DNA of 26,301 nucleotides, taken from the IMG/VR virus record IMGVR_UViG_3300025128_000279, positions 1-26,301 of that record; one strand, written 5' to 3'. The stretch comes from a virus. Of this stretch, positions 1,982 through 23,510 are shown one piece after another. The stretch's first letter is position 1. Every line of letters begins with the position of its first letter. A model generated the notes under the pieces. That model was given only the letters and a program-made list of their open reading frames with translations, searched no databases and was not told where the DNA came from. The translations under genes and the position numbers were made by a program.

Positions 1982-2186
1982 ATAACTAGGCCCACGTTCT
2001 GTGCAACCCTAGAATATATAAGTAAAACTTTTTTGCAACCCAGTAATATGGCCGATAATAGGTTGATCCCCTGTTTATCCTACCCCCTAGAGCTGGCCCG
2101 TGAAAGTTATGTCCTGAAGTATGACCTTTACAGTCATGCTTGTGGGCCTTGTTGCCCACTTAGTACGAAAAAAAGGAGATTTAATT
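1982..2186 (+). promoter_or_regulatory. Structured 5' leader of the capsid gene
   Basis: This is the longest gene-free stretch in the window (1935-2186). Visible pairings are ATGAC/GTCAT (2121-2125/2133-2137) and GTGGGC/GCCCAC (2142-2147/2154-2159). GTGGGCC at 2142-2148 could instead pair exactly with GGCCCAC at 1989-1995. TTGTGGGCC at 2140-2148 could also pair, with three GU pairs, to GGCCCGTGA at 2095-2103. These helices exclude one another. The ribosome binding site AAAAGGAG (2171-2178) lies just after the last hairpin. A 60-codon frame in this leader has no ribosome binding site and runs into the capsid gene, so I do not call it. Confidence 0.4.
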
Positions 2187-3260
2187 ATGGCTTTTCAACG
2201 TGCTGCAGGGTATAACAATTTACCGAATGGTAATTTTAGCCCTGTAATTTACTCTAAGCAGGTCCAGCTTGCGTTTCGCAAGGGTTCTGTTGCTGAGGAT
2301 ATTACCAATAATGACTACTTTGGTGATATCGCAAACTTTGGTGATACTGTCCGTATTATCAAGGAGCCTGAGATCACGGTCAAATCTTATGCCCGTGGTA
2401 CTCAAATCTCGCCACAAGACCTTGATGACGAAGATTTTCAGCTTGTAGTTGATCAAGCTAACTACTTCGCATTTAAGGTTGATGATATCGAAGAAGCACA
2501 TTCACATGTGAACTTTCAGAACGTAGCGTCTGATCGTGCAGGCTATCGCCTCAAGGATCAGTATGACGCAGAAGTTTTGGGCTACCTTTCTGGTTTTGCT
2601 CAGGCTTCTATCAGTGCTGTTGCTAGTACCGCTAATACTACGGTTTCTGGCACCAAGGCTGTTTCGACTGCTGGTTCCGACGAATTGCTTTCTTCTATGC
2701 AGCTTAAGAAGGGTGACTTTGGTAACATTACGACCTCTTCAGCAGGTACGCATTCCGTTCCAGTGGCAGCTCGTCTGCCGGGGGCAAGTGCGCTTCCTAC
2801 AGCTACTGCATCACCTAATATGGTTGTGGCAAGAATGGCTAGGCTCTTGGACACGCAGTTTGTGGACAAGGATAATCGGTGGCTCGTTATTTCACCACAC
2901 TTCATGGAAGTGTTGATGGATGAGGACTCCCGACTTCTAAACCAAGACTTTGGTGAATCCGGTGCGATTCGCAATGGTCTTGCACTAAATAATCTTTACG
3001 GCTTTAGGGTTTATGTTTCTAACAACCTACCTGCTGTTGGCACTGGTCCGGGTACTTCTGGTACTGCAAACCAAAACTCCAACTATGGTGTAATTGTTGG
3101 TGGACATAATTCTGCTATTGCAACCGCAAGCCAGATCACTAAGACGGAAACGTATCGTGATCCTGATAGCTTTGCTGATATCGTGCGTGGTATGCACCTT
3201 TACGGTCGTAAGATTCTACGACCTGAAGCAATTGCCACAGCGAAATACAATATAGCATAG
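2187..3260 (+). CDS. Major capsid protein
   Basis: A 357-residue protein beginning MAFQRAAGYNNLPNGNFSP. The N-terminal half (FGDTVRIIKEPEI, AFKVDDIEEAH, YRLKDQYDAEVLGYL) matches my memory of the major capsid proteins of HMO-2011-type marine podoviruses, presumably with an HK97-type fold. Residues ~135-210 are Ser/Thr/Ala-rich. The start at 2187 is preferred over the in-frame ATG at 2121 because AAAAGGAG ends eight bases upstream and the extra 22 residues would arise from leader RNA. Its codons look more C/G-ending than those of the scaffold gene, as expected for the most expressed gene. It has its own promoter and leader, and GGGAGG at the end leads into the next gene. Confidence 0.85.
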   Translation: MAFQRAAGYNNLPNGNFSPVIYSKQVQLAFRKGSVAEDITNNDYFGDIANFGDTVRIIKEPEITVKSYARGTQISPQDLDDEDFQLVVDQANYFAFKVDDIEEAHSHVNFQNVASDRAGYRLKDQYDAEVLGYLSGFAQASISAVASTANTTVSGTKAVSTAGSDELLSSMQLKKGDFGNITTSSAGTHSVPVAARLPGASALPTATASPNMVVARMARLLDTQFVDKDNRWLVISPHFMEVLMDEDSRLLNQDFGESGAIRNGLALNNLYGFRVYVSNNLPAVGTGPGTSGTANQNSNYGVIVGGHNSAIATASQITKTETYRDPDSFADIVRGMHLYGRKILRPEAIATAKYNIA

Positions 3261-5123: not shown

Positions 5124-5609
5124 ATGACTCTATTATCAGGGCTAATTCAGCAAAATGTCGATAGGCATACTACCGATCTTGTAACTCTAACCGCAACTGC
5201 TTCAATTACAACGGCAGATCATGCAGGAAGAACTCTTCTTATGGGAGAGGTTGGTGGCGATGCTGCTGCTACATTTACGCTTCCGGCTGCAACAGGTACA
5301 GGCAGTGTATTTAAATTTGTTGTATCTGTTGTGAATACTTCAAATTATTTAATTAAAGTGGCTGATGCCACAGACACCATAGATGGTCAAATTGTAATTA
5401 CGGATGCTGATGGAACGGACGCTGCCTCAATGGTAACGGCTGCTACTTCTGACACAATTACATTAAATGGCACAACTACTGGTGGAGGTGCTATAGGTGA
5501 CTATGTTGAGTTGATTGACATAGCATCTAATCAATATACCGTAAGTGGTATGGTAACATGTGCTGCAGGTTCTAATATTGCAACCATGTTTAGTGCTACT
5601 GTTTCTTAG
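5124..5609 (+). CDS. Beta-rich virion protein, paralog of 5835-6419
   Basis: A 161-residue protein. From residue ~18 (DLVTLTATASITTADHAGR) to the end it aligns without large gaps to the second paralog downstream. They share exact blocks such as GEVGGDAAATFTLPAATG, SVVNTSNY, KVADATDTIDG, DTITLNGTT and LIDIASNQY. This copy has a short N-terminus (MTLLSGLIQQNVDRHTT) and lacks the repetitive N-terminal extension of its partner. The fold appears to be all beta. Similar modules occur in phage head-fibre or tail-associated proteins, so a surface virion role is plausible. The ribosome binding site is TAGGAGAAG. pqqA begins 36 bases after its stop. Confidence 0.6.
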   Translation: MTLLSGLIQQNVDRHTTDLVTLTATASITTADHAGRTLLMGEVGGDAAATFTLPAATGTGSVFKFVVSVVNTSNYLIKVADATDTIDGQIVITDADGTDAASMVTAATSDTITLNGTTTGGGAIGDYVELIDIASNQYTVSGMVTCAAGSNIATMFSATVS

Positions 5610-5645
5610 TAGCTTAGTAGTTTAACCAAAGAAAGGAGTAGTACT

Positions 5646-5723
5646 ATGTCTTGGAACACACCAAAGATTACCGAAGTTTGTGTCGGTATGGAAATCAATT
5701 GCTACGCTTGTGCAGAGCTTTAG
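5646..5723 (+). CDS. pqqA: PqqA, coenzyme PQQ precursor peptide
   Basis: A 25-codon gene. The peptide starts MSWNTPKITE, continues VCVGMEINCY and ends ACAEL. It has the hallmarks of PqqA: family length (about 22-26 residues), Trp3 and Pro6 near the start, Gly14, and the invariant Glu16-x-x-x-Tyr20 pair. PqqE, a radical-SAM enzyme working with the chaperone PqqD, cross-links that pair to build pyrroloquinoline quinone. A perfect AAAGGAG (5632-5638) lies seven bases upstream of the ATG, supporting real translation. The VGMEINCY form looks, from memory, like alphaproteobacterial PqqA. No pqqB-E genes are present, so the peptide would depend on host enzymes. It sits between two paralogous structural genes and is followed by a strong hairpin. 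The main alternative is chance resemblance, which the motif, length and ribosome binding site together make unlikely. Confidence 0.88.
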   Translation: MSWNTPKITEVCVGMEINCYACAEL

Positions 5724-5761
5724 TTACTGCCGATAGTAGTTTTTAAAAATTAACTATATGA

Positions 5762-5800
5762 AGGGATATATGGCACATTTACCGTGTGTCATATATCCCT
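5762..5800 (+). terminator. 16-bp hairpin after pqqA
   Basis: AGGGATATATGGCACA (5762-5777) pairs with TGTGTCATATATCCCT (5785-5800): 16 continuous pairs including one GU, around a seven-base loop. It is followed by CCCATTTATAATTTAG, so the T-tract is poor. It may be a leaky terminator, an RNase block that stabilises the pqqA message, or a processing site. It occupies most of the 111-base gap before the second paralog. Confidence 0.65.
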
Positions 5801-5834
5801 CCCATTTATAATTTAGCTAAGAAAGGAATAAATA

Positions 5835-6419
5835 ATGGCTAGTTTTAAAATGACACAGGGCATTTCTCGTGTGCCTGAAGATGTCTTTGTTGAAGATGGC
5901 ATGACGGTCACTTCAGGCGGTCTAACCGTCACTGCTGGTGGCGTAACAGTTACTGCAGGCACCACTACTCTTGGAGGATCATTTATACGAGATTTAGTTA
6001 CGCTAACTGCAACCGCAACACTGACAAACGCTGATCATGCAGGACGTATTCTGCTTATGGGCGAAGTTGGTGGTGATGCTGCAGCAACATTTACGTTGCC
6101 TGCCGCTACTGGTTCTGGTGCAGAGTTTCAATTTATTGTCTCAGTTGTTAATACATCCAACTATGTAATTAAGGTTGCTGATGCTACTGATACGATTGAC
6201 GGTTCTGTTACTCTTCATCAAGATAGTGCTGCTACCGTGGCTTCTTTTAATACTGCTGCTGATTCAGATACCATTACGTTGAATGGTACTACGCAAGGTG
6301 GTGTTTCTATTGGTGATGAAATCACGCTTATTGATATTGCTTCTAACCAGTATATGGTTAAGGGTATCCTAACTGCGAGTGGAACGGAAGCTACTCCATT
6401 TAGTGCCAGCGTTTCTTAA
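5835..6419 (+). CDS. Beta-rich virion protein, paralog of 5124-5609
   Basis: A 194-residue protein with two parts. Residues ~20-50 carry short repeats of the type GGLTVTAGGVTVTAG, typical of triple-beta or fibre-stalk segments. Residues ~52-194 are the same domain as the upstream paralog, with long identical blocks but many synonymous DNA differences. The duplication is therefore not recent and the protein is held by selection. The ribosome binding site is AAGAAAGGAATAA. By context it is a trimeric head or tail appendage. It is followed by a stable hairpin at 6429-6459. Confidence 0.6.
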   Translation: MASFKMTQGISRVPEDVFVEDGMTVTSGGLTVTAGGVTVTAGTTTLGGSFIRDLVTLTATATLTNADHAGRILLMGEVGGDAAATFTLPAATGSGAEFQFIVSVVNTSNYVIKVADATDTIDGSVTLHQDSAATVASFNTAADSDTITLNGTTQGGVSIGDEITLIDIASNQYMVKGILTASGTEATPFSASVS

Positions 6420-22843: not shown

Positions 22844-23133
22844 TGGCAAAAAAGAATACAGGCATGAAAGGTTTAACGGTTAAAGGAGGACATAAGCGTT
22901 CAACCAAGTCGGGTGCTGGTCTGACTGCCAAAGGAGTACGTGCATACCGTAGAAAAAATCCGGGCAGTAAATTAAAAACTGCTGTAACAGAAAAAAACCC
23001 TCGCACAAAGGCAAGGGCTGCTAGGCGTAAGAGTTATTGTGCTAGATCAGCAGGACAAATGAAGAAGTTTCCGAAAGCAGCTAAGAATCCTAACAGCCGT
23101 TTGCGTAAAGCTCGTAAAAGATGGAGGTGTTAA
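22843..23133 (+). CDS. Small basic phage protein (DUF6321-like)
   Basis: A 96-residue, very Lys/Arg-rich protein. It contains KGLTVKGGHKRSTKSGAGL at ~9-27, then AYRRKNPGSKLKTAVTEKNP, then SYCARSAGQMKKFPKAA and a C-terminal RWRC. I know this pattern as a small uncharacterised family common in phages and environmental sequence, which I recall as DUF6321 (from memory). The start at 22843 forms a TAATG overlap with the previous stop; the in-frame ATG at 22804 would lie inside the upstream gene. Its own stop overlaps the iscU start in the same way. The charge suggests nucleic-acid binding; the two cysteines are a curiosity next to an Fe-S scaffold gene. Confidence 0.7.
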   Translation: MAKKNTGMKGLTVKGGHKRSTKSGAGLTAKGVRAYRRKNPGSKLKTAVTEKNPRTKARAARRKSYCARSAGQMKKFPKAAKNPNSRLRKARKRWRC

Positions 23134-23510
23134 TGGCATACGGAAATAAAGTTTTAGATCATTACGAGAATCCAAGAAACATTGGATCAATGGATAAGGA
23201 TTCAACAAAAGTAGGCACAGGTTTAGTGGGTGCGCCTGCCTGTGGTGACGTAATGAAATTACAAATACAAGTTAGCGATGACGGTGTAATTGAAGATGCA
23301 AAATTTAAAACCTTTGGTTGTGGATCAGCAATAGCTTCCTCTAGTCTTGTAACAGAATGGGTAAAGGGTAAGTCATTAGCTGAAGCTGGAACAATAAAGA
23401 ATACTGAAATTGCGCAGCATCTTGCATTGCCCCCTGTCAAGATTCACTGTTCTGTTTTAGCAGAAGATGCGATCAAGGCTGCAATAGCAGATTATTTAAA
23501 TCGTTCTTAA
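23133..23510 (+). CDS. iscU: IscU, iron-sulfur cluster assembly scaffold
   Basis: A 125-residue protein that reads almost like a cellular IscU. It has MAYGNKVLDHYENPRNIG at the N-terminus, the three cluster-ligand cysteines Cys37 (APACGD), Cys63 (FGCGSA) and Cys106 (IHCSVLAEDA), and Asp39 and His105. The LPPVK motif at 99-103 is recognised by the HscA chaperone. Length matches the family, so it should be functional. IscU receives sulfur from IscS and passes [2Fe-2S] or [4Fe-4S] clusters on; here IscS, HscA/B and ferredoxin would come from the host. The ATG at 23133 overlaps the previous stop and has GGAGGT upstream. Its TAA overlaps the stop of the convergent gene on the - strand. Strong conservation in a phage suggests a recent cellular origin or strong selection. 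Confidence 0.95.
   Translation: MAYGNKVLDHYENPRNIGSMDKDSTKVGTGLVGAPACGDVMKLQIQVSDDGVIEDAKFKTFGCGSAIASSSLVTEWVKGKSLAEAGTIKNTEIAQHLALPPVKIHCSVLAEDAIKAAIADYLNRS

Follow-up and report, generated by a model that had tools for sequence, protein, structure and literature searches.

A 26,301-base virus record (hereafter the window), which holds mainly the structural half of a phage genome, encodes a genuine PqqA, the precursor peptide of PQQ. With a probability of about three in four, the phage peptide feeds the PqqD and PqqE of the host and would thereby keep up or raise PQQ. As an auxiliary metabolic gene it qualifies in part, being a host-type metabolic gene within a viral genome.

The major head protein of the window is 70–74% identical to those of phages CRP-1, CRP-9 and Puniceispirillum phage HMO-2011, which identifies the phage as an HMO-2011-type podovirus. 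The original prediction placed pqqA in a structural operon, and the neighbours agree: the major head protein (phrog_267) and a tail protein (phrog_10775) are encoded upstream, and a match to the virion-protein family phrog_3287 is found downstream. In a megablast search the window matched no public phage record. An IscU/NifU-like Fe-S scaffold protein is encoded at positions 23121–23510 (PF01592, E = 1.5e-51); a link between it and PqqE, itself an Fe-S enzyme, would be speculation.

The translated ORF (25 residues) bears out the full PqqA signature that had been claimed for it, with Trp3, Pro6, Gly14, Glu16 and Tyr20 all in place. PQQ is formed from the joined Glu16 and Tyr20, whose numbering is that of M. 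extorquens PqqA (PMC10906245). The length falls in the range of the family (about 22–29 residues), the Glu-x3-Tyr pair lies near the C-terminus, and the leader contains Trp-x2-Pro and a Gly preceding the Glu. Both family profiles match strongly, TIGR02107 with 41.5 bits (E = 7.9e-11, curated cut-off 20) and PF08042 with 31.8 bits (E = 1.4e-07, curated cut-off 21.1), and searches with the two profiles gave zero matches in 14 control genomes. The AAAGGAG motif reported seven bases before the ATG was also verified. No promoter was found close upstream of pqqA, and promoter matches were no more frequent than expected by chance.

Table 1. Features of the window around pqqA and the head protein used to place the phage.
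Feature	Position	Strand	Basis or remark
Major head protein (phrog_267)	2121..3260	+	73.5% identity to Roseobacter phage CRP-1, 69.7% to HMO-2011
Gene 5' of pqqA, 161 aa, at the left border of the cassette; its paralog lies 3' of pqqA	5124..5609	+	
Interval between the paralogs, with pqqA and hairpin	5610..5834	+	L003 has a short intergenic stretch instead
Shine-Dalgarno sequence AAAGGAG	5632..5638	+	7 bases 5' of the pqqA ATG, direct reading
pqqA, 25 codons, PQQ precursor peptide MSWNTPKITEVCVGMEINCYACAEL	5646..5723	+	Translation, PF08042, TIGR02107
17-bp RNA hairpin 3' of pqqA, part of the cassette	5762..5800	+	z = -6.5
Gene 3' of pqqA, 194 aa, at the right border of the cassette; its paralog lies 5' of pqqA	5835..6419	+	

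The hairpin that accompanies pqqA between the two paralogs (Table 1) was matched in stability by none of 200 shuffled sequences, and it is conserved in a related locus (L004, z = -5.8). It has no T-run and is therefore not a standard terminator; it is also absent from the list returned by terminator prediction and is possibly an RNA-processing or stabilising element. Across 117 loci, 71% have a hairpin of -9 kcal/mol or lower 3' of pqqA versus 28% after mononucleotide shuffling. In six related loci (L010, L012, L014, L018, L031, L032) a Cys-rich, metallothionein-like ORF of 39–44 residues, e.g. MKDSNAAVAKCGNENCKCINCTCENCQCSIENPCGCSEGKNEWR, lies directly 3' of the second paralog (at about 9150–9285 in L010). 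The block around the paralogs appears to acquire small cargo genes.

A collection of 80 related viral loci, obtained with the upstream paralog as query, contains an intact pqqA at the same place in six (L002 and L004–L008), so the frame is intact in all seven carriers of the window clade. Of the 80 records, 46 were searched in full with the profile, and pqqA was found in six only. No carrier has a disrupted frame, and Glu16 and Tyr20, whose loss the original prediction had named, along with a missing profile match, as evidence against itself, are kept in every one. In L003 the upstream protein is 98% identical and pqqA is cleanly absent. This locus is nested inside the carrier clade in a tree of three flanking genes (support 0.98), consistent with a single gain and a single loss; recombination could also account for the absence. 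That the gene is accessory in the window clade, with two alleles, counts against its role in PQQ supply.

The wide spread of pqqA among viruses had been missed by the original prediction. At least 120 IMG/VR contigs match a degenerate pqqA pattern, and all 120 that are listed encode PqqA-like peptides, 88 of them distinct; among the matches listed, most viral contigs have the alphaproteobacterial xYxCA peptide type. A named phage hallmark lies within 5 kb in 69 of the 120, and not every contig is proven viral. As the pattern itself demands Trp, Pro, Gly, Glu and Tyr, the conservation of these five residues in the listed contigs was not taken as evidence. An unbiased sample was instead drawn via a neighbouring GroES-like protein, and the evidence on conservation is restricted to this sample and the window clade. 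The sample comprises 80 loci, four of which start too near a contig end, leaving 76 assessable. In 63 of these pqqA is found upstream of groES at one syntenic place, where its neighbours encode a portal, GroES, a scaffold-position protein, a major head protein and a terminase. This lineage is unrelated to the window; Glu and Tyr are kept in all 63 copies, and none is degenerate or broken. Other viral groups have pqqA near the terminase small subunit, a T4-like helicase loader, holins or replication genes. A viral record of 265,895 bases (L189) encodes a Methylobacterium-type PqqA, MKWSAPIVQEVCVGMEVTSYDSAEIDTFN.

For the window clade, the dN/dS of pqqA comes to ~0.11 (from just two alleles); the groES lineage has 0.18, and 77 distinct viral sequences together give 0.11. 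These ratios indicate purifying selection. They bear on a first alternative, in which pqqA is a neutral passenger, i.e. a recently acquired fragment of host pqqA that, expressed or not, has no effect on infection. Such a fragment would explain why the gene is accessory in the window clade and cleanly missing in L003, and why just two alleles are known there. However, dN/dS is low both in the clade and across phages, there are zero broken copies in seven clade carriers or 63 groES-lineage loci, pqqA has a Shine-Dalgarno sequence of its own, and unrelated phages repeatedly carry a pqqA matched to the host type. A neutral passenger was thus already disfavoured, and we consider it improbable.

The processing enzymes do not travel with the phage gene. 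As the original prediction stated for the surroundings of pqqA, the window has no pqqB-E, and PqqB, PqqC, PqqD and PqqE are missing from all 211 viral stretches searched (the window and 210 related ones), with three bacterial controls all positive. PqqE was found in none of the 126 pqqA-bearing viral records searched, in which two partial radical-SAM matches were weak and far below the cut-off. Adjacency to pqqB-E is usual in bacteria but not required of a pqqA, and lone bacterial copies exist. A matching PqqA motif occurs in 36 of 385 alphaproteobacterial genomes; PqqE is present in 33 of the 36 and a PQQ-dependent alcohol dehydrogenase in 32, and in many of them pqqA is adjoined by pqqBCDE. 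The closest bacterial peptides are identical to the window PqqA at 18–19 of 23 residues. What strengthens the reading of the phage gene as a lone precursor peptide is that the processing enzymes are missing from the viral records but usual in bacteria that share the peptide type.

Some of these alphaproteobacteria (L236, L242–L244, L245, L246–L247 and L250) carry two or three copies of pqqA, in tandem or distant from pqqBCDE, so that extra precursor genes are normal there. A LysR-type regulator is found beside some lone copies (L235, L247 and L248). L235 was suspected of being viral since its peptide equals a phage one; its neighbours look bacterial.

In bacteria, PqqE together with PqqD cross-links Glu16 to Tyr20 in PqqA; a protease, PqqB and PqqC then complete the cofactor (PMC10906245). 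The phage peptide would enter the same route. It would be translated off its own ribosome-binding site, probably alongside the surrounding structural genes; host PqqD would bind its Trp-Pro leader half, host PqqE would join its Glu16 to Tyr20, and the cell's own protease, PqqB and PqqC would complete PQQ, which would then serve periplasmic PQQ-dependent alcohol or methanol dehydrogenases. The phage would provide nothing except a consumable substrate, at a cost of ~80 coding bases, and may benefit from a PQQ supply that is held or raised as host expression drops. The original prediction held that PQQ output responds to pqqA dosage in several bacteria. In Gluconobacter, overexpression of pqqA alone gives more PQQ (cited in PMC7936290); in Acetobacter pqqAB yields +29% and pqqABCDE an eightfold increase. 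Because such dosage effects are modest beside that of the whole operon, PqqA may not limit every host; its dosage can matter and is not always limiting.

The lack of accompanying processing enzymes would also suit a decoy, i.e. a phage PqqA that occupies host PqqD and PqqE without being converted and so lowers PQQ or alters radical-SAM chemistry. PqqA, PqqD and PqqE do form a ternary complex (PMC10906245), but a decoy has no need of both cross-linked residues, and Glu and Tyr persist in every copy of the unbiased sample, which makes this explanation quite improbable. We find it very unlikely that the peptide has taken on another role, e.g. as a virion part or as a metal- or thiol-binding peptide acting through Cys12, Cys19 and Cys22. 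The location of pqqA amid structural genes and the Cys-rich mini-proteins in the same block of related phages speak for such a role; against it, bacterial PqqA peptides encoded beside pqqBCDE share the CYACAE ending, and in other lineages pqqA is found near terminase, holin or replication genes or between transcription units. A use of PQQ outside host oxidation is just as hard to credit, e.g. one in which PQQ serves as an antioxidant or binds the TonB-dependent importer PqqU of neighbouring or superinfected cells. Its one point in favour is the wide distribution of a high-affinity PQQ importer among Gram-negative bacteria (PMC12124388); against it, the hosts do possess PQQ dehydrogenases.

The gene also occurs, unrecognised, in phages in culture. 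A tblastn search with a beta/gamma-type peptide detected pqqA in nine cultured methylotroph phage records, namely Venkman, P19250A, MEP301, MEP401, MEP402 and four Melnitz records. In the five examined (L333–L337: Venkman, P19250A, MEP301, MEP402 and Melnitz-1) the frames are intact and preceded by Shine-Dalgarno-like sites, and the peptides score 34–41 bits with TIGR02107. Four of these five records have no feature covering pqqA, and that of Melnitz-1 has an overlapping hypothetical protein, annotated on the opposite strand. The FGFEVTMY peptide type is found in phages recorded from Methylophilales hosts. The Methylophilales phages MEP431–434, known from taxonomy names, were not among the matches and may be absent from the searched collection. 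No cultured phage was recovered with the window peptide type or with either of two further alphaproteobacterial types as query; a Klebsiella phage match to the window type (E = 10) was put down to chance. Two Acinetobacter 'phage' matches were excluded, and the one inspected, CAKLQF020000010.1 (L338, titled 'Acinetobacter phage MD-2021a'), contains the full bacterial pqqABCDE operon and appears to be DNA of a bacterium.

The original prediction was not aware of PqqA as an established auxiliary metabolic gene, a remark that needs correction. In 2020 PqqA was described together with a methanol dehydrogenase in a Lake Baikal virus and proposed to aid methanol oxidation (PMC7678222), and a 2026 list of viral genes from reservoir sediments includes pqqA (PMC13188868). 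The literature searched, outside which lie subscription papers and preprints, yielded no further reports of phage PqqA: PQQ is unmentioned in a survey of HMO-2011-type phages (PMC9038755) and in the MEP301 paper, and appears only as a medium component in the Venkman paper. The breadth of the distribution, the lone-gene arrangement, the matching to hosts and the presence in cultured phages have no counterpart in this literature, so that novelty is limited to these points.

We lean towards the view that marine phages in general pursue a strategy of supplying a consumable precursor peptide, in which a lone pqqA matched to the host type has been acquired repeatedly by unrelated phage groups, has become nearly fixed in at least one of these and has escaped notice because of its length (under 30 codons); marine PQQ-dependent alcohol and methanol oxidation would then be widely influenced by viruses. 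If the mechanism is true, a viral gene of fewer than 30 codons could sustain the cofactor supply for bacterial methanol and alcohol oxidation, and abundant marine methylotrophs and alphaproteobacteria would be affected. It would amount to cheap control of a pathway, the phage contributing the substrate peptide and relying on enzymes of the host. The gene also falls into a blind spot of annotation, being unlabelled even in the genomes of cultured phages, in which the idea is directly testable.

Among known systems, the HMO-2011-type phages (CRP-1, HMO-2011; PMC9038755) are close to the window in the major head protein, and iscU, present in the window, is reported in some members. Unlike in the window, pqqA was not detected in cultured phages of this type in the public collection (short-peptide tblastn), which counts against the PQQ-supply model. 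The pqqABCDE operons of alphaproteobacteria encode a PqqA of the window's type, but of these genes the phage carries just that for the precursor. The cultured methylotroph phages (Venkman, P19250A, MEP301, MEP401, MEP402 and Melnitz) share with the window a lone intact pqqA with a Shine-Dalgarno sequence. Theirs is 23–24 codons long, encodes the FGFEVTMY type and belongs to different phage families with Methylophilales hosts; it lies in intergenic gaps or is not labelled PqqA. The T4-like Methylophilaceae viruses VP_266 and VP_139 of Lake Baikal (PMC7678222) encode PqqA too, likewise proposed to act in PQQ-dependent oxidation. They are freshwater viruses with a methanol dehydrogenase of their own, whereas the window comes from a marine HMO-2011-type podovirus in which no PQQ enzyme was found, and its PqqA is of the alphaproteobacterial type and encoded between structural genes.
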